Source of the DNA: a virus
Reading direction: 5' to 3' (one strand)
DNA: 20,493 bases
Virus record (IMG/VR): IMGVR_UViG_3300001836_000039
Location: 1 to 20,493 of that record
Of this stretch, positions 1-14,687 are shown piece after piece. The position numbers and the translations under genes are program-made. Numbering within the stretch: position 1 is the first letter of the stretch; each line of letters begins with the position of its first letter. A model generated the notes under the pieces. That model had not been told where the DNA came from and did not search any database. It saw only the letters and a list, made by a program, of their open reading frames with translations.

Positions 1-2148
1 CGCCGTCGTGCCGGTGTCCCATGTATAGTCAATAGCGACAGGCCCCGAAGCGCCGGTCGAGCCAGTCGATCCGGTCGCGCCGGTCGCACCCGTCGCACCC
101 GTTGCGCCGGTCGCACCTTGATCGCCCGTGCGATAAAACGACACTAGCAGCTGATCGCCGTTGGTGAGCGCTGTCGGCGCCGTGATGTTGGCGACGTTGA
201 ACGTCAGCCAAGACGAATTGTCGGTAACGGCGCTCGTCACGTCGAACACGGCGACGGTAACGCCCGACGTTTGTTTGCGGATGACGAGCTGGCCGCGATG
301 CGCCGAGGTCGTCGAATCGTCCCACGTTGTGACCCATCCAGAGACGTTGGGGTTTCCGGTCTCGGCTGTCGTCGGAGCGATAGCGATCTGCGTGGCAGAG
401 CCGATCGTGGCGCTATTGAAGCGCAACCCGCCCGCAGACGGCGCGGCCATCGTCGTGGTCGAGTCGTAGGTGTATTTGATGCCGCCGTCAGACCCGGCCG
501 ACCCGGTCGCGCCGGTCGCACCCGTCGCACCCGTCGCACCCGTTGCGCCGGTCGCACCCGTCGCACCCGTCGCGCCGGTCTGCCCCTGCAGCGACACGCC
601 CGCAGGCCATGCCCCGGACGCCTTCGGGCCGTACATGATCCTAGCCGCCGGATCGTACGCATAATCGCCATCGATCCCCGTGTTACTGGACGGCGCCCCG
701 CTCGTCGTTAGGATCGTCTTTACGCTCGACGACGCGCCCGCAAACAGAGCCAGGTCGTAGATGATGACGTAATGAACGTACACGTTCTTGACGCGGTTCT
801 CGCTGATCGTCGGAGAACTGGCGTCGGTGCCGTACAATCCACCCGGCGCAACGAAAGCAGTATAGCTGCTGCCAGTACCGTTACCTACCTGTAACTGCGA
901 GCTCGGAAAATTCTGAATAGTATGCGTGTGCGACTTCAAACCGTCGTTTTGGAACGAGCCGACATGATCGCCGACCGCGCCACCCGTCTTAAGCGCATAG
1001 CGAAGGTTGACCGTGCCGCCCGAGGTATAGGTGCCGGCGAAAACCGAGCCGTTGAGGTCGAACGTCGTCGAGCTTTGGACGGTTATAATCCAGTTGCCGT
1101 TGGCCGCGGTCGCGCCGACGACGCCAGAAATGGTAACGCGGTTGCCGCTTTCGAGCTTTGCTGTGCTGGCCACCGTGATGCGGCAGACGCCCGCCCCGTT
1201 GTTCGTAACGTTGGTCACCGCCAGCGTCGTCGTCGCGTCGGTATCGACGCCCGCGCCATTGTTCCAGCCTCGCGGGACGTAGCCGCGTCTGTCCGGGATG
1301 TTGAACGTGGTCGCGTCGTTCGCGCCGTAGGTCGTGCCGATCACCGCGAACAGATCGGCATAGGTCGTGCGAGATTTTGACGAGCCGTCGCACGTCCACG
1401 TGCCAGCCCATGGCGTCTCAGACGGACACTCGATGATCTGCCCGAGACGCATCAGGCCGCCGGTAATCCGGCTGTCGAGCATGTTGGACGTGATCAAACC
1501 GGACGCGTATCCCGTGCGCGAAAACGCGACAGACTTCCACGCATTTGCGCCGTTGCTTACCAGCGTGATTGCGTCGCCGGTCGCCGTCAGCGCGATTGAG
1601 GACGCGTTGTTGAGCAGATCGCCGCCGGTGCCGATCAGAGTGAGGTTGTTCGAGGCGCCCTTGCGGATCGCGGTGAACGTCGTCCCATTGCCGGCAGCGA
1701 GTGCAGTCGGGATCACGACAGAAATGTTGCCGCCCGAGGTGTCAAACTCTTTTGCCGTCCCGTAATCCGCCGGGACTACGGTGTACGTCGTGGAGGCAAC
1801 CGCGGCGATCGGCACGTTCCAAAGCCCGCTACCCGTGCCGCCGCCAACAGCCGCGCCCTTCACGTTGTCGTGGGAGGCGAGCGTGACGCCGAGCGCGTCC
1901 TTCAGCGTCACTTTGTAGGCATCAGTGCCGGTGTAGATCAGCACCTTGTTGCCGCCGGAGGACGGATAACCGCTCGCGTCGGTCGTGATCGAGACGCCGA
2001 GCGAACTCGACAACCCCAAGTCGGAATAGACCGTCTTCGGCGTCGAGGTGCCAGCGTTGTAGAACTCGATCGACCCACCCGACACCGGGTTGTCGTTCGC
2101 ATCAGTCAGCCGCCAGCCCGGAGGAAAGACGGCAACGGAATCGGTCAT
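1..2148 (-). CDS. Tail fibre with tail-collar domain and collagen-like repeats (partial, runs off left edge)
   Basis: An open frame of 716 codons starts at ATG 2148 and reaches the window edge with no stop, so the C-terminus is missing. Residues about 16-95 (DANDNPVSGGSIEFYNAG, later YTGTDAYKVTLKDA) match the N-terminal domain common on phage tail fibres. A phage tail-collar domain begins near residue 236, with PDRRGYVPRGW at 285-295 and an HTH triad at 407-409. Collagen-like Gly-X-Y blocks lie at about 522-556 (eight GAT triplets) and 675-702. The start is 2 nt after the stop of the metalloprotease-like gene. The likely role is a trimeric receptor-binding fibre, or its stem, at the distal end of the virion. 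The fold assignments come from motif reading; the receptor and the missing tip are unknown. Confidence 0.88.
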   Translation of the reverse strand, partial: MTDSVAVFPPGWRLTDANDNPVSGGSIEFYNAGTSTPKTVYSDLGLSSSLGVSITTDASGYPSSGGNKVLIYTGTDAYKVTLKDALGVTLASHDNVKGAAVGGGTGSGLWNVPIAAVASTTYTVVPADYGTAKEFDTSGGNISVVIPTALAAGNGTTFTAIRKGASNNLTLIGTGGDLLNNASSIALTATGDAITLVSNGANAWKSVAFSRTGYASGLITSNMLDSRITGGLMRLGQIIECPSETPWAGTWTCDGSSKSRTTYADLFAVIGTTYGANDATTFNIPDRRGYVPRGWNNGAGVDTDATTTLAVTNVTNNGAGVCRITVASTAKLESGNRVTISGVVGATAANGNWIITVQSSTTFDLNGSVFAGTYTSGGTVNLRYALKTGGAVGDHVGSFQNDGLKSHTHTIQNFPSSQLQVGNGTGSSYTAFVAPGGLYGTDASSPTISENRVKNVYVHYVIIYDLALFAGASSSVKTILTTSGAPSSNTGIDGDYAYDPAARIMYGPKASGAWPAGVSLQGQTGATGATGATGATGATGATGATGATGSAGSDGGIKYTYDSTTTMAAPSAGGLRFNSATIGSATQIAIAPTTAETGNPNVSGWVTTWDDSTTSAHRGQLVIRKQTSGVTVAVFDVTSAVTDNSSWLTFNVANITAPTALTNGDQLLVSFYRTGDQGATGATGATGATGATGSTGSTGASGPVAIDYTWDTGTTA
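43..126 (-). repeat. Collagen-like tandem repeat block 2 inside the tail fibre
   Basis: A second Gly-X-Y run (GDQ, five GAT triplets, GST, GST, GAS, GP) lies about 120 residues downstream of block 1. Between the blocks sits a beta-rich stretch without Gly-X-Y periodicity. The central part of this block is nearly identical in DNA to part of block 1, so the two could recombine in frame. Confidence 0.88.
481..585 (-). repeat. Collagen-like tandem repeat block 1 inside the tail fibre
   Basis: These 105 bp encode 35 residues of Gly-X-Y: GQT, then eight consecutive GAT triplets, then GSA, GSD and GG. At DNA level this is a 9-bp unit alternating between ggtgcgacg-type and ggcgcgacc-type copies. Such units are expected to form a trimeric collagen-like stem and to change in copy number by slippage. 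Confidence 0.9.
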
Positions 2149-7660: not shown

Positions 7661-7785
7661 GGAGCCCTCTTCAGTGCGAGCAATAGGGCCGCGAAGAACT
7701 GCAGCCACACCTTGTTCATGGTCCCGTCGTCGTTGATCACGGGCGTCGAGGCGGCCGGGAGCGGCGGGAGATTGGAGATCGCCAT
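7657..7785 (-). CDS. Small conserved-looking phage protein, 42 residues
   Basis: ATG 7785 overlaps the gp10-like stop as TGATG, and the stop overlaps the next ATG as ATGA, so the gene is tightly fitted between two virion genes. The product begins MAISNLPPLP and contains INDDGTMNKVWLQFF followed by a leucine/alanine run. Short proteins with a 'v..dGk.t..W..ff..L' pattern often occur next to phage tail genes. Their role is not established as far as I can tell. The hydrophobic end could be a membrane or packing helix. A longer upstream in-frame extension reads through the gp10 gene and is not needed. Confidence 0.65.
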   Translation of the reverse strand: MAISNLPPLPAASTPVINDDGTMNKVWLQFFAALLLALKRAP

Positions 7786-9284
7786 CAGGCCACCAGTTTT
7801 TCTGCGTCGAGCGCGGCTTGCATCCAGCCCTTCACGACGGCGGCGGAAACCGAGAACTCGAACGTGCGCCCCTGAGGCGGGACAATCCCAAGGCGACGCA
7901 TGATCCCGCGCCGGATCGTGTCGCCCTGCCGCCCGAGAGGGATGCGCCGCTCGCCCGACCACGTGGCGCCGCCGTTGTCCGACCAGCGCACCATCATCTC
8001 GGGGGTGGCGTCCTGCGTTGCCGTGCTGTTGAGCCCGACGCCAGCGACAAAATCCACGTAGAGCGTGCCGACCTGCAATCGGTTCGGGAACGAATGCACC
8101 GGAGGCGTCCGCACGGTCATGATCAGCGGCGCGTTGCCCTCAGAGGCATAGTCGAGGCTCATCGTGTAGAGCTTGCCGAGGGTGGCATCGCCCGCGATCC
8201 ACTTTGTGCCGAAATTGGAAACCACCGAGCATCGCCAGCGGCTTTTGCCGTAGCTCTGCCGCTCGCTCCAGGTGTTGGTGGTCCGGTTCCAACACCACGT
8301 CCAATCCGGCGAGCTGATCTGGTAGAAACTGTGCCCGCGCGCCGCCCATGACGTAGACGTGATTTGATCCGGCACGGCAGACGCAATGTCACGCTCTACC
8401 GCATGTGTCGAGATGCGCTGCCCATCGTAGCCCGCCATTAGCCGCACGGTTCCATCGTGCGCAATCCATGCAAGCGTGCGCTCCACCTTCGCGACGCTAC
8501 CGGCGGCGAGGCATCCAAGCTCGGCGATGGCCACGCGGCCATCCTTAAACGGAAAATCGACGTTGCCAGTGTCTTTCCACCATTCCGTCGATCGCGAGCC
8601 GAACAGCACCACCTCGCCCTCGCGCGTCTCGGCGCGCACGATCTCATCCGGGTTGCTGTCCGCCGTGCCGAAATCGAGCGGATCGATCGTTGTAAAATCA
8701 TCGATACCGGTCGTGAACCACCGCCCGTTGCTCACTGGAATGATGCCATACCCGTCAAGCACGGTAAGCGACGATCCCGGCGGCAGGGTCCAGGCGCTGG
8801 ACGCCGCCCCTAATGACGGGTCCGTTAGCGTGGGGTCCGGGTCCGTTAGCGTGGGGTCCGTTAGCGTGCTCGTGCTCGTCGCGCCTGTCACCAATTGAAG
8901 CGTATTGGCACCCGTGTCGATTACGTAAAAAAGGCCCGAAGACAAAATGCCAATTTGCGGGACAGCGCGCCGATTCCGCGCCATGTAGACCGGCCCATCT
9001 GTCGGAATGCCGCCAATCGTCGTCACGCCGCCGCCCGCGTCCACCCGATACACCTGCCGGCCCGACACGACGTAGAGATAGGCACCGACCTCGATCATCC
9101 CGCGCACACCAGCGCTCGCCAGCGTCGCAAAGTTGGCAAGCCCATCGTGCGCCACGATCAAATTCGGCGTTTTCGCCTGGTCTCCACTCTGCTCCACGTA
9201 GCAGTTGATGTGCCGAGCCGCGCCCGCAACATCAAACCGCGCCCTGTTGCTGCCGGTGCCGAGGGAAATGGGGACGACCGTCAC
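7785..9284 (-). CDS. Packaged-DNA stabilisation / tail-hub protein, P22 gp10-like
   Basis: The product has 499 residues (P22 gp10 has 472). The GTG start overlaps the upstream stop (GTGA). The N-terminus (VPISLGTGSNRARFD, then INCYVEQ), followed by beta-propeller-like repeats such as YLYVVSGRQVYRVD, WFTTGIDDFTTIDPLDFG and VVLFGSRSTEWWKDTG, matches the P22 stabilisation-protein family. That family closes the portal after packaging and bridges to the tail. The SRSTEWW motif at about 230 is characteristic. A short TLTDP-repeat insert lies at residues about 140-156. The gene directly follows the gp4-like gene, as in P22. Confidence 0.9.
   Translation of the reverse strand: MTVVPISLGTGSNRARFDVAGAARHINCYVEQSGDQAKTPNLIVAHDGLANFATLASAGVRGMIEVGAYLYVVSGRQVYRVDAGGGVTTIGGIPTDGPVYMARNRRAVPQIGILSSGLFYVIDTGANTLQLVTGATSTSTLTDPTLTDPDPTLTDPSLGAASSAWTLPPGSSLTVLDGYGIIPVSNGRWFTTGIDDFTTIDPLDFGTADSNPDEIVRAETREGEVVLFGSRSTEWWKDTGNVDFPFKDGRVAIAELGCLAAGSVAKVERTLAWIAHDGTVRLMAGYDGQRISTHAVERDIASAVPDQITSTSWAARGHSFYQISSPDWTWCWNRTTNTWSERQSYGKSRWRCSVVSNFGTKWIAGDATLGKLYTMSLDYASEGNAPLIMTVRTPPVHSFPNRLQVGTLYVDFVAGVGLNSTATQDATPEMMVRWSDNGGATWSGERRIPLGRQGDTIRRGIMRRLGIVPPQGRTFEFSVSAAVVKGWMQAALDAEKLVA
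8819..8868 (-). repeat. Three imperfectly spaced copies of a 14-bp unit inside the gp10-like gene
   Basis: The plus-strand unit ggtccgttagcgtg occurs at 8819-8832, 8840-8853 and 8855-8868. The offsets are 21 and 15 bp, both multiples of three, so the frame is kept. It encodes the low-complexity string TLTDPTLTDPDPTLTDPS, which interrupts the propeller-like protein between two beta segments. It is probably a recent slippage expansion in a surface loop. Confidence 0.92.
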
Positions 9285-9874
9285 TGTATCTGATCGATCT
9301 GATAGGGCCAGATTTGCGAGGGCATGCGCGTCAAGCCGTAGTCGACGGCGACCGGGCGGATCGGCATGAAGGCAGCTATGAGCGCGGTCATTCCGTCGCT
9401 CGCGCGCTTTGCCGTCAGCGGGCCAGGATCGACGTTGAACGACGCGGCCATGTTCATGGCGAGCATGGCGATGACGCCCGACCTGAACTCGAGCCCAAGC
9501 GGGAACTCGTCATCGATCGCAAGTTCCACCATCGGGTAGGCTGTCCAGTAGGACGACCAGTTCGGCGACGTGCCGGGCCGGTCGTATTCGCTGGACGTGT
9601 GCAGCGTCGAACAGACGTAGACGCTGCCGGAGCGCAGCACGCCATCGTTGACAGCGTACTGTGTGAGCGTCGCCCAATCGCCGCGCCAGTTGATGCCCGC
9701 GGGAAGCGTCCCGAGCAGCGGCGGAATGAACATGCCCTGCGTAAGCCACCGCGCGGCCATCTCGTTGAGCCCGGCGAGGGTGTCGCTGATGGCCTCCGCC
9801 GAAGGGGTTTCCCCCTCCGCCGTGAACATCAGTTCCTTCAGAGCCCGAGTGCAGATGTCGCGCGCGGTGGCCAT
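9281..9874 (-). CDS. Tail accessory / head-completion protein, P22 gp4-like, with carbohydrate-binding-like insert
   Basis: The product has 197 residues (P22 gp4 has about 166). ATG 9874, two bases after the coat stop, gives MATARDICTRALKEL, the typical N-terminus of the gp4 family. The later part, with LEFRSGVIAMLAMNMAASF, also fits the family. P22 gp4 binds the portal ring after packaging and is needed for tail assembly. Residues about 61-112 are an insert with aromatic spacing W63, W67, Y73, Y86, C88, H92, W106 and W110, plus the strings SVYVCSTLHTS and TSPNWSSYW. This resembles a CBM5/12-type chitin-binding module and accounts for the extra length. The gp4 call is strong; the binding function of the insert is inference. 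Confidence 0.85.
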   Translation of the reverse strand: MATARDICTRALKELMFTAEGETPSAEAISDTLAGLNEMAARWLTQGMFIPPLLGTLPAGINWRGDWATLTQYAVNDGVLRSGSVYVCSTLHTSSEYDRPGTSPNWSSYWTAYPMVELAIDDEFPLGLEFRSGVIAMLAMNMAASFNVDPGPLTAKRASDGMTALIAAFMPIRPVAVDYGLTRMPSQIWPYQIDQIQ

Positions 9875-12098: not shown

Positions 12099-12308
12099 AT
12101 GCCTGACACCATCACGTGGTTTGGAAAGTCGATCGACGATATGACAGCGGACGAATTGCGCGTTGTGGTTCGCGAATTGGCCGACAGCGACCGAAGGTTC
12201 GCAGCGACGCTGCGCGCACAACAGTCGATCTTCGAGGCGGCGATATCTTTGCCAACCATTCCTACCGTTCGAATCAGGCGCCCCAAGGATTTCATCCCGC
12301 GGGGATAG
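12099..12308 (+). CDS. Small plus-strand protein between portal and scaffold genes
   Basis: This is the only supported gene on the plus strand. The product has 69 residues from ATG 12099 (MPDTITWFGKSIDDMTADEL). An in-frame GTG at 12057 would add 14 residues. Residues 7-48 look like a genuine short globular or helical protein, with a DDMTADELRVVVRELADSD helix and an arginine/lysine/proline tail. Small phage proteins with an 'iTWFGK..ddMt.deL' style opening occur, but I cannot name a family. It fills the gap between the portal and scaffold genes, and its last 17 bases overlap the portal end in convergent orientation. A TGcTAAACT string at 12058-12066 could be an extended -10 element. It may be an independently expressed moron gene. 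Confidence 0.6.
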   Translation: MPDTITWFGKSIDDMTADELRVVVRELADSDRRFAATLRAQQSIFEAAISLPTIPTVRIRRPKDFIPRG

Positions 12309-14388
12309 CCATCGGCTCGCCGGGCGGGGCCATCGGCGGCATGTTGTCGGCGTCGAAATCGCCCGGCCCGCCCATCTGATCGGCGTCGGGCTCGGGATGC
12401 GGTGGCATCGCTCCAGGCGGCATGCCCGGCGGGCCTTGCGGCTGCGGTGACGGCATCAGCACGCCCTCGGGCGGCGGCAGCACCGGCTCGGGCATCACCA
12501 TTCCAGCCGCTTCCTGGCGCGTCTTCTGAGCATCCGCATAGGCTTTCGCGGCTTGGGCGTCCCGGAGCACGATTTCCGAGCGCAAAACCGGGTCTTCCAA
12601 CGGATTTGGCGGGGGAGGTGGCGGTGGCGAGTTCGGGTCTTCCGGGTCGTGCAGGAGTTGCGGCGGCATCGCCTGCTTGAACCGCTTCGCCATTTCGTCG
12701 GCGCCGGGCCAATCCATGTTCTTGATCAGCAGATCGCGCACCATCGGCAGCGCTTGCGGATCCGCCTTGAGGTACTGAACCATCATGTCGGCCGCTTCCA
12801 TGCGCTTGGTCGCGTAGCTGGCGCCGATCGTTGCGCGCACGTCGAAGCGTCCGGCCGATAGATCGTTGATCGTGATCGGAACTCCATCCGGTCCCATCAC
12901 GGAATGATTTATCCGGTGGTGTTCCTCGCTGTCGTCCTCGCCCATGATCCGCACGACGCGCTCGGTGTCGTAGATCTGCGGAATCATCTCGATCAGGATG
13001 CGCCCGGCGTGCCACATCGAGCGTTCGAGGTTGTCGGAGAAGTGATAGTTCGCCGTGTCGCCCTGATGCTCGCGGTTGCGAATGGCGATGCCGGAAGTTT
13101 CATTCGAGCGGGCGCCGAGCGAACTGTCATAGATGCCCGTCGTCGCCTTCATGTCGCCGTCGGCTAGCTCGGCTTCCTTCACAAAGGCGGGCGCCATGGC
13201 CGGCGGGGCAATGCGATTGGGCGCCGGAACGTCCTTTTGCGAGTCGTAAGGCAGATATGGGTAGTTGGTGCGGTTGATAGAATCCCAGATGTGTTTGAAC
13301 GGCGCGATCGACTTCGCGTCCACGAGCCACGGCGCCTTGGGCTGCAGCGCAAGCGTCTCGGCCGCTGCCGTCCGGTTGTAGTTGTAGAGTTGCTGCGGGT
13401 CTCGCGCATAGCGGATCAGGCCGGCACGGACCACCGCCGTCTCGAGCGGCGTTTCCGAGCCGATAACCGGGATGATCGGAATCCACTTCGACGGCCACTT
13501 GTGCGGGCCTGAGAGCACCGATCGGCCGCTGATGATGTACTGCTCCACCTCATAGCTATCGACTTGCCGCGTGCGCGTGATCCCGATCAGCGGCCACATC
13601 TCGCGCTTGATCTTCGACAGGTCGACCGTCTGCCCGTCCCGCGTCTGCCCGATCATCTTCTTGACCGGCTTGCGCACCCAATATTCCGCGATCCGCACAC
13701 CGTCTCGCGTGAGCCACGTCAGGCGGTCGCCGGTGCCGTCAGTCGGCGGGTCGATGCCGTCCAGGCTTTCGCCGGGGTACTGCTCCTTGAATGCGTCGGT
13801 CGGGATTATCTCTGTGATGAACATCCACTTCGCATCCGAGCGGTCAGGCTCGATCGCCGCCGGGTCGCAATAGACGCTCAGAGGATTGCGGACGCTCTTC
13901 AGCCGTAGTTCTAGGTTGAACGTCTCGTCATCGGTGTACTCGGTGCAGAGCCGGAACCAGCCGATGCCGCAACTCACCTGATGCTCGGCAGCGGCGCCGT
14001 AGACGTGCTTCGCGCTCGACTGATAGTGAATCTGCCGGAGCAGGCCGTTGAATATTTTTGCGAGCTTCGGGTCCGACCGGTCGTCGACCGGCGAGACCTT
14101 GATCGAAAGATCGGCCTGCCGAATGTCGTTCGTGACTTGGCGCACGAACTGCGGCAACCGATTGATAGTGAGAATGGGCCGACCTTGCGCCTGACGCTCC
14201 TTGCGGATCGACTCGGGCCACTGGTAGCCGGCGAGGAACGCGAGGTCCAACGATGCTTCGCGCCGGTTCTCGCGCTCGTACAGGTAGGCGGCATCGAGCT
14301 TCTTCCGGCAGTCCACGAGGAACTTGCCCTGCTCCGCGTCGCTCATCTTTGGCTTGGAAGCCTCGCCCGGCTGGGCGTAGTTCTCCAT
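12292..14388 (-). CDS. Portal protein, P22 gp1-like
   Basis: The product has 698 residues (P22 portal has 725). ATG 14388 is chosen because it overlaps the upstream stop as TGATG and gives MENYAQPGEASKPKMSDAEQ; a longer in-frame start at 14514 would cover the previous gene. The strings LAGYQWPESIRKERQAQGRP, LTINRLPQFVRQVTNDIRQ, NPLSVYCDPAAIEPDRSDA and later ETSGIAIRNREHQG are characteristic of the P22 portal family. The C-terminal 110 residues are proline-rich (PPPPPPPNPLEDP and several PP.PP runs) in place of a clear long helical barrel. The dodecameric ring is the DNA entry and exit channel, and docks the terminase and the gp4-like protein. Confidence 0.94.
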   Translation of the reverse strand: MENYAQPGEASKPKMSDAEQGKFLVDCRKKLDAAYLYERENRREASLDLAFLAGYQWPESIRKERQAQGRPILTINRLPQFVRQVTNDIRQADLSIKVSPVDDRSDPKLAKIFNGLLRQIHYQSSAKHVYGAAAEHQVSCGIGWFRLCTEYTDDETFNLELRLKSVRNPLSVYCDPAAIEPDRSDAKWMFITEIIPTDAFKEQYPGESLDGIDPPTDGTGDRLTWLTRDGVRIAEYWVRKPVKKMIGQTRDGQTVDLSKIKREMWPLIGITRTRQVDSYEVEQYIISGRSVLSGPHKWPSKWIPIIPVIGSETPLETAVVRAGLIRYARDPQQLYNYNRTAAAETLALQPKAPWLVDAKSIAPFKHIWDSINRTNYPYLPYDSQKDVPAPNRIAPPAMAPAFVKEAELADGDMKATTGIYDSSLGARSNETSGIAIRNREHQGDTANYHFSDNLERSMWHAGRILIEMIPQIYDTERVVRIMGEDDSEEHHRINHSVMGPDGVPITINDLSAGRFDVRATIGASYATKRMEAADMMVQYLKADPQALPMVRDLLIKNMDWPGADEMAKRFKQAMPPQLLHDPEDPNSPPPPPPPNPLEDPVLRSEIVLRDAQAAKAYADAQKTRQEAAGMVMPEPVLPPPEGVLMPSPQPQGPPGMPPGAMPPHPEPDADQMGGPGDFDADNMPPMAPPGEPMAIPAG

Positions 14389-14687
14389 CAGGTAGCCGCC
14401 ATTACGCTTTGCAGCGCCGTCAACAGTCGTTCGGCCTGCTGGATCGCCGTCTGGCGGTACAGGCGCCCTCGGCCATGCCCCGCGTAAGTAAACTCGATCC
14501 GGAATGCCGGCCAATCAGGACCTCGTCGCTCGATCACAAGCGCGGGCTGCATGCCGGGCCTGTCTTCAGCGAACAGCGCCAGCCCGTTATAATGGTGGCG
14601 TCCGATGTCGATACCGCGCATGCGAGCCCAGCGGCTCAAAATGCCGTCCAATTCATAGGGCGTTAGAACTCGATAACCCCTCTTCAT
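14388..14687 (-). CDS. Unknown 99-residue protein between large terminase and portal
   Basis: ATG 14687 overlaps the terminase stop (ATGA), and the stop overlaps the portal start (TGATG), which fixes both ends. The product begins MKRGYRVLTPYELDGILSRW and includes the strings GIDIGRHHYNGLALFA, ALVIERRGPDWPAFRIEF and a C-terminal helix QQAERLLTALQSVM. It is slightly basic and has no membrane segment. No family was recognised. The tight coupling to terminase and portal suggests a role in packaging or head assembly, but this is context only. A 136-residue version starting inside the terminase gene is less likely. Confidence 0.7.
   Translation of the reverse strand: MKRGYRVLTPYELDGILSRWARMRGIDIGRHHYNGLALFAEDRPGMQPALVIERRGPDWPAFRIEFTYAGHGRGRLYRQTAIQQAERLLTALQSVMAAT

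Follow-up and report, generated by a model that had tools for sequence, protein, structure and literature searches.

A predicted CBM5/12-like module between core helices 2 and 3 of a podovirus head-tail adaptor

Results

The DNA studied, called here the window, is a 20,493-base virus record (IMG/VR IMGVR_UViG_3300001836_000039). According to PHROGs matches, its minus strand carries a podovirus block with small and large terminase, portal, scaffold, major capsid, adaptor and Hc3 genes and an ejection-type gene. The adaptor gene (9281-9874, minus strand; 197 aa plus stop), assigned to the P22 gp4/Ad3 type by PHROGs and the predicted fold, sits between the genes for the major capsid protein and for the P22 gp10-like head closure protein Hc3 (7785-9284, minus strand; phrog_578, E 1.1e-94). 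Hc3 is the expected partner under the adaptor ring and the portal protein (12292-14514, minus strand; phrog_156, E 4e-144) the expected partner over it. A short LTDPxLTDPD-type repeat was seen at about residues 140-155 of Hc3, and a tail-fibre-like gene with collagen-like Gly-x-y repeats and without a CBM_5_12 match runs off the left end of the window (1-2148, minus strand). Searching the window for Rfam families and tRNA genes gave no hits.

Both ends of the adaptor matched PHROGs families, residues 1-51 corresponding to phrog_12985 (E 1.2e-7) and residues 120-177 to phrog_637, head-tail adaptor Ad3 (E 9.6e-8); residues 58-108 were the sole region matched by two tail-fibre families and one family of unknown function. 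The only Pfam hit of the protein among 24736 models at E up to 10 was CBM_5_12 (PF02839; residues 67-110, E 3.4e-4), with scores of 21 bits for the whole protein and 24.5 bits for the segment alone, under the curated cut-off of 26.2 bits. CBM_5_12 matched nowhere else in the window. P22_Tail-4 (PF11650) was absent from the Pfam listing of the window adaptor at E up to 10 and matched one of the eight adaptor sequences described below (E 0.086). A similarity of the module region to MHC class II (E 0.02 or worse) was taken as chance.

Scanning of IMG/VR gave eight loci with module-bearing adaptors, all on metagenomic contigs; the protein of one of them (L002) was identical to ours, and the alignment used throughout contains the window and the other seven (eight rows). 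Identity of the whole adaptor ranged from 43 to 76% and the module was present in all eight rows, each of the eight distinct sequences, window included, matching CBM_5_12 (best E 9.6e-9). Fifteen module residues were invariant (P58, W63, W67, Y73, V79, G83, Y86, C88, S94, D98, P100, G101, S103, W106, and W110) and H92 was His in six of the eight. The core Trp position of CBM5/12 fell on W110, not on W106, in the alignments. A profile built from 27 phage modules retrieved the chitinase A1 domain 1ED7 from the PDB sequences at 5.7e-9.

These results bear out most of a sequence-only reading that had placed a CBM5/12-like block at window positions 9539-9694: the interval does encode residues 61-112 of the 197-aa minus-strand protein, the aromatic residues, C88 and H92 that it had listed are where it put them, and the profile check that it had proposed returned CBM_5_12, under the cut-off as given above, in place of an absence of CBM similarity.

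No further adaptor relatives came from scans with the alignment or with the L007 or L005 relatives as queries. Among bacterial and archaeal contigs, 235 pattern matches (single protein) and 46 (eight-row alignment) were obtained and none was confirmed, with a filter that could miss distant relatives. In INPHARED, tblastn revealed no module-bearing adaptor among seven records (window protein as query) or 25 (L005 relative). With the latter query, four records spanned at least 80% of its length and corresponded to long adaptors with a beta domain (L023, L029, and L032 being read and the fourth, MW202655, classed from the match alone); the remaining adaptor matches spanned just the first 50 residues or so. 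Matches to the module itself in INPHARED were annotated as minor tail, tail-fibre or hypothetical proteins, one record being unannotated. Our literature search, of limited coverage and thus a weak negative, found no published description of an adaptor with a CBM module.

All structural results presented here are predicted models. AlphaFold2 with the eight-row alignment gave a best model, of five, with a mean pLDDT of 80 and a pTM of 0.71 (scores from 75 to 56 for the others); the module region reached pLDDT 80-89, and residues 174-197 were unreliable. By VIA-align the adaptor model matched the Pan3 adaptor 9vyg (Z 16.5, 2.9 Å, 116 residues), P22 gp4 8u10 (Z 15.8, 2.1 Å, 112 residues), and Sf6 gp7 (Z 14.2, 3.7 Å, 122 residues), the fold matches to P22 gp4 and Sf6 gp7 ranging from Z 11.6 to 15.8. 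As judged by sequence matches and predicted structure, the 197-aa protein is a podovirus head-tail adaptor with the P22 gp4 fold.

Predicted strands lay at residues 62-66, 77-81, 84-88, and 110-113, and residues 64-114 of the model superposed on the CBM of the Vibrio cholerae chitin deacetylase (4nz4; Z 8.3, 1.3 Å, 48 residues). The module modelled alone from the 27 phage modules (pLDDT 89) gave a comparable result with chitin deacetylase CBMs (Z 8.4, 1.4 Å, 50 residues). Other matches fell below Z 8, a range in which VIA-align scores may reflect only a common arrangement: residues 134-184 of the cyanophage A-1(L) tail fibre 8kec (Z 7.5, 1.6 Å, 50 residues with the module in the adaptor model; Z 7.7 with the lone module) and, for the lone module, 1ED7 (Z 5.4, 1.6 Å, 44 residues) and, weakly, residues 162-228 of T4 gp23 (Z 4.6, 2.7 Å, 51 residues). 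The best Foldseek E-value of the 61-residue lone model against PDB was only 0.0075. Residues 58-114 (9533-9703, minus strand) are thus assigned, from the Pfam match, the predicted strands and the fold match to the 4nz4 CBM, to an extra domain with a predicted CBM5/12 fold.

In the model this domain lies outside the core fold, between core helix 2 on its N-terminal side (residues 26-45; 9740-9799, minus strand; predicted model and phrog_12985) and core helix 3 on its C-terminal side (residues 128-146; 9437-9493, minus strand; predicted model and phrog_637). The profile matches, the predicted structure and the existence of adaptors lacking the segment agree with the earlier description of a plug-in block in a gp4-family protein; the segment is missing from the adaptors of P22, Pam5, and ctkAd229, and so is not a core element of all gp4 homologues. 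The excess of about 30 residues over P22 gp4 holds for the whole protein (31 residues longer than the 166 aa of gp4) but not for the block: residues 1-174 of the model pair with P22 residues 3-124, which makes the block about 52 residues long and the C-terminal tail shorter than that of P22.

The region between helices 2 and 3 was compared in 14 adaptors, those of 12 phage records reached through Hc3 or the adaptor plus two more that were aligned. Their lengths were 117 aa in Pam5, 137 aa in ctkAd229, 182 aa in Pam1, and 220-327 aa in the others, ctn9Y15 being the longest. Helix 2 ran almost directly into helix 3 in the short adaptors, and about 100 residues or more separated the two helices in the long ones. 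CBM_5_12 was found in none of the eight comparison adaptors scanned (of the 14) at E up to 1, one of these eight matching the Pfam family SU10_adaptor above its cut-off. CBM-type and long adaptors are homologous (hhalign 99.3%), and the module showed no detectable relation to the slot beta domains of eight long adaptors (hhalign probability 0.5%). The module has not, then, been inserted into an otherwise invariant protein: the slot itself is variable among adaptors. The order of the sequence and the SU10_adaptor match suggest that it would be the site of the fibre dock of T7 and SU10.

The adaptors of Xanthomonas phage PBR31 (L025:2988-3941; 317 aa) and of ctn9Y15 (L031:1836-2819; 327 aa) contain about 80 extra residues within the slot domain. 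In Acetobacter phage phiAX1 the gene directly preceding Hc3, the expected place of an adaptor, is annotated as cycloisomaltooligosaccharide glucanotransferase (L033:1618-3438, plus strand); it was left out of the comparison because its start is unlike adaptor sequence.

A 20-row tree of Hc3 placed the eight CBM-type phages in one 10-row branch (99/99), which also contained ct2G2228, with a long-type adaptor, and Pam5, with the shortest one. The occurrence of CBM-type, long and shortest adaptors in a single branch indicates that what fills the slot has changed among related phages. Slot labels needed two changes on this tree, and a single origin was recovered in 18% of the bootstrap trees.

When the module alone was used for scanning, 49 loci were obtained, eight of them the adaptor loci and 41 encoding other proteins; all ten of these 41 proteins that were scanned matched the tail-fibre family phrog_5073. 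Another of the 41, L059, on the contig of relative L017, is a 1052-aa tail protein (L017:2093-5251, plus strand) of phrog_376, which we take to be a T7 gp12-like nozzle. About five CBM5/12-like modules could be discerned by eye in this protein, three stretches passing the Pfam search individually, and the module block searched had no INPHARED match at 1e-4. The nearest sequence relatives of the adaptor module were these tail-fibre and nozzle modules of phages. A loop H-T-S...D-x-P-G-x-S-x-x-W was common to adaptor and nozzle modules, fibre-type modules lacking it. We infer that the module was probably acquired by exchange from the stock of tail-fibre or nozzle modules that phages share.

According to PMC8449059, CBM5 contacts sugar through a pair of adjacent aromatic residues and a third aromatic, and has a Tyr and a Trp in its core; the reference list of that paper names Gln679 and Trp687 as contacts of chitinase A1. 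Residues were compared on exact translations of the 27 modules, eight from adaptors, 17 of fibre type (from 40 other loci) and two from the L059 nozzle protein. The core equivalents of W656, Y662, Y675, C677, P689, and W696 were kept in every adaptor. The Trp687 position was Asp in all eight, in contrast with Trp in three enzyme modules (one from chitinase A1, two from a Vibrio deacetylase). At the Gln679 position the adaptors had Thr, Val or Ala, never Gln, followed by Ala, Val or Leu; the CBM5 aromatic pair is therefore absent from each of them. Fibre-type modules had a gap at the Trp687 site (17/17) and Gln at the Gln679 position in five of 17, indicating that loss of the canonical site is common among the phage modules sampled. 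The glycan-binding patch suggested by the sequence-only reading was consequently not borne out, the known chitin contacts being missing from all adaptors and the nearest relatives being tail-fibre and nozzle modules.

W106 was invariant in the adaptors, present in both exact nozzle modules and missing from the 17 aligned fibre-type modules. It stands four residues ahead of the core W110, Tyr296 of CjCBM5 standing three ahead of its core Trp299, and could contact sugar near the place of the third CBM5 aromatic. The conserved residues D98, P100, and G101 (8/8) and H92 (6/8) ring one loop, which could be a ligand site.

Discussion

P22 gp4 and Sf6 gp7 share with the present protein the helical adaptor core and the gene place between capsid protein and Hc3, but nothing folded intervenes between their helices 2 and 3, and the C-terminal tail of P22 is longer. 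According to PMC6702177 and PMC9509320, the adaptors of T7 and SU10 bear an extra beta domain that serves as a fibre dock and that P22 and Sf6 lack. Like the module, it lies beside the helix bundle; unlike it, it holds fibres in solved structures, as these sources describe, and is presented there as a jelly-roll, and no relation of the module to the beta domains of related adaptors could be detected. Chitinase A1 ChBD (1ED7, CBM12) and the Vibrio chitin deacetylase CBMs share the fold and core residues; compared with the former, the adaptor module lacks Trp687 and Gln679 and is located in a virion ring protein. The collagen-type tail-fibre modules (phrog_5073) and the A-1(L) fibre 8kec share the motif PxGxxWRGxW...YAxND but sit in long fibres, the adaptor and nozzle modules adding the DxPGxSxxW loop. 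The module shows that the conserved head-tail ring of short-tailed phages has a slot that exchanges unrelated small domains.

With the canonical chitin residues lost, although W106 is kept, we lean slightly towards the module being a structural or docking part of the neck ring, ahead of glycan binding and, third, of a domain without a specific task. In such a role, twelve modules would point outwards from the neck adaptor ring, by analogy with known adaptors, and might bridge adjacent subunits, brace the portal clip or the capsid, or hold a fibre of the phage itself, from the slot where T7/SU10-like adaptors carry a fibre dock and P22-like ones just a loop. This role would resemble that of the chitin-binding-like domain inserted in the capsid proteins of T4, which bridges neighbouring subunits according to PMC3185693. 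The insertion of gp23/gp24 is likewise plugged into a conserved virion protein, but it is found in the capsid, not in the neck, and the structural match is the weak one to gp23. Against docking, no fibre of this phage matching the module was found; the conserved W106, the H92/D98 loop and that weak T4 match could also count against a structural or docking part.

A tentative and clearly less probable alternative is that the twelve neck modules decorate the virion and weakly bind host or environmental glycans through a non-canonical site (W106 and the loop with H92 and D98), which would aid reversible adsorption. It would account for the predicted CBM5/12 fold, for the retention of W106 in adaptor and nozzle modules and for the loop conserved around H92, D98, P100, and G101, and glycan-binding decorations, Ig-like and other, occur on some phages (PMC7602432). 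The substitutions at the Trp687, Gln679 and aromatic-pair positions in all adaptors argue against it, as does the lack of W106 in fibre-type modules; moreover, the CBM ending the neck fibres of phage A-1(L) showed no host-cell binding when tested, according to PMC10966104.

Near-neutral filling of the slot, in which the loop between helices 2 and 3 would tolerate any small beta domain with close ends, spread by recombination and with no specific task, is unlikely. Related phages, among them the close Hc3 relatives ct2G2228 and Pam5, do have the slot empty, short or occupied by an unrelated domain, but the 15 invariant residues persist at whole-protein identities down to 43%, and a degraded module was seen in no relative. 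That the module is a diverged standard fibre-dock domain resembling a CBM by chance, an idea favoured by the common slot and by an hhalign alignment of full adaptors running through the middle, was already disfavoured and is highly improbable given the 0.5% probability for the isolated domains, the CBM_5_12 match of all eight sequences and the predicted superposition at 1.3 Å over 48 residues on solved CBMs.

More speculatively, and with considerable doubt on our side, the helix 2-3 slot may serve generally for the exchange of outer-surface domains and, in addition, the CBM5/12-like neck modules of the adaptor and of the L017 nozzle may bind host or environmental glycan through a new site formed by W106 and the H92/D98 loop. 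With the adaptor module it can be tested whether a CBM-shaped virion domain binds sugar or is a mere building block. Automated annotation may read carbohydrate binding from the Pfam hit, and the known binding residues are missing here. Among predicted structures in BFVD, the second-best match to the whole adaptor model was A0A6J5LNM8, a 492-aa 'ChiA1_BD domain containing protein' from an uncultured phage.
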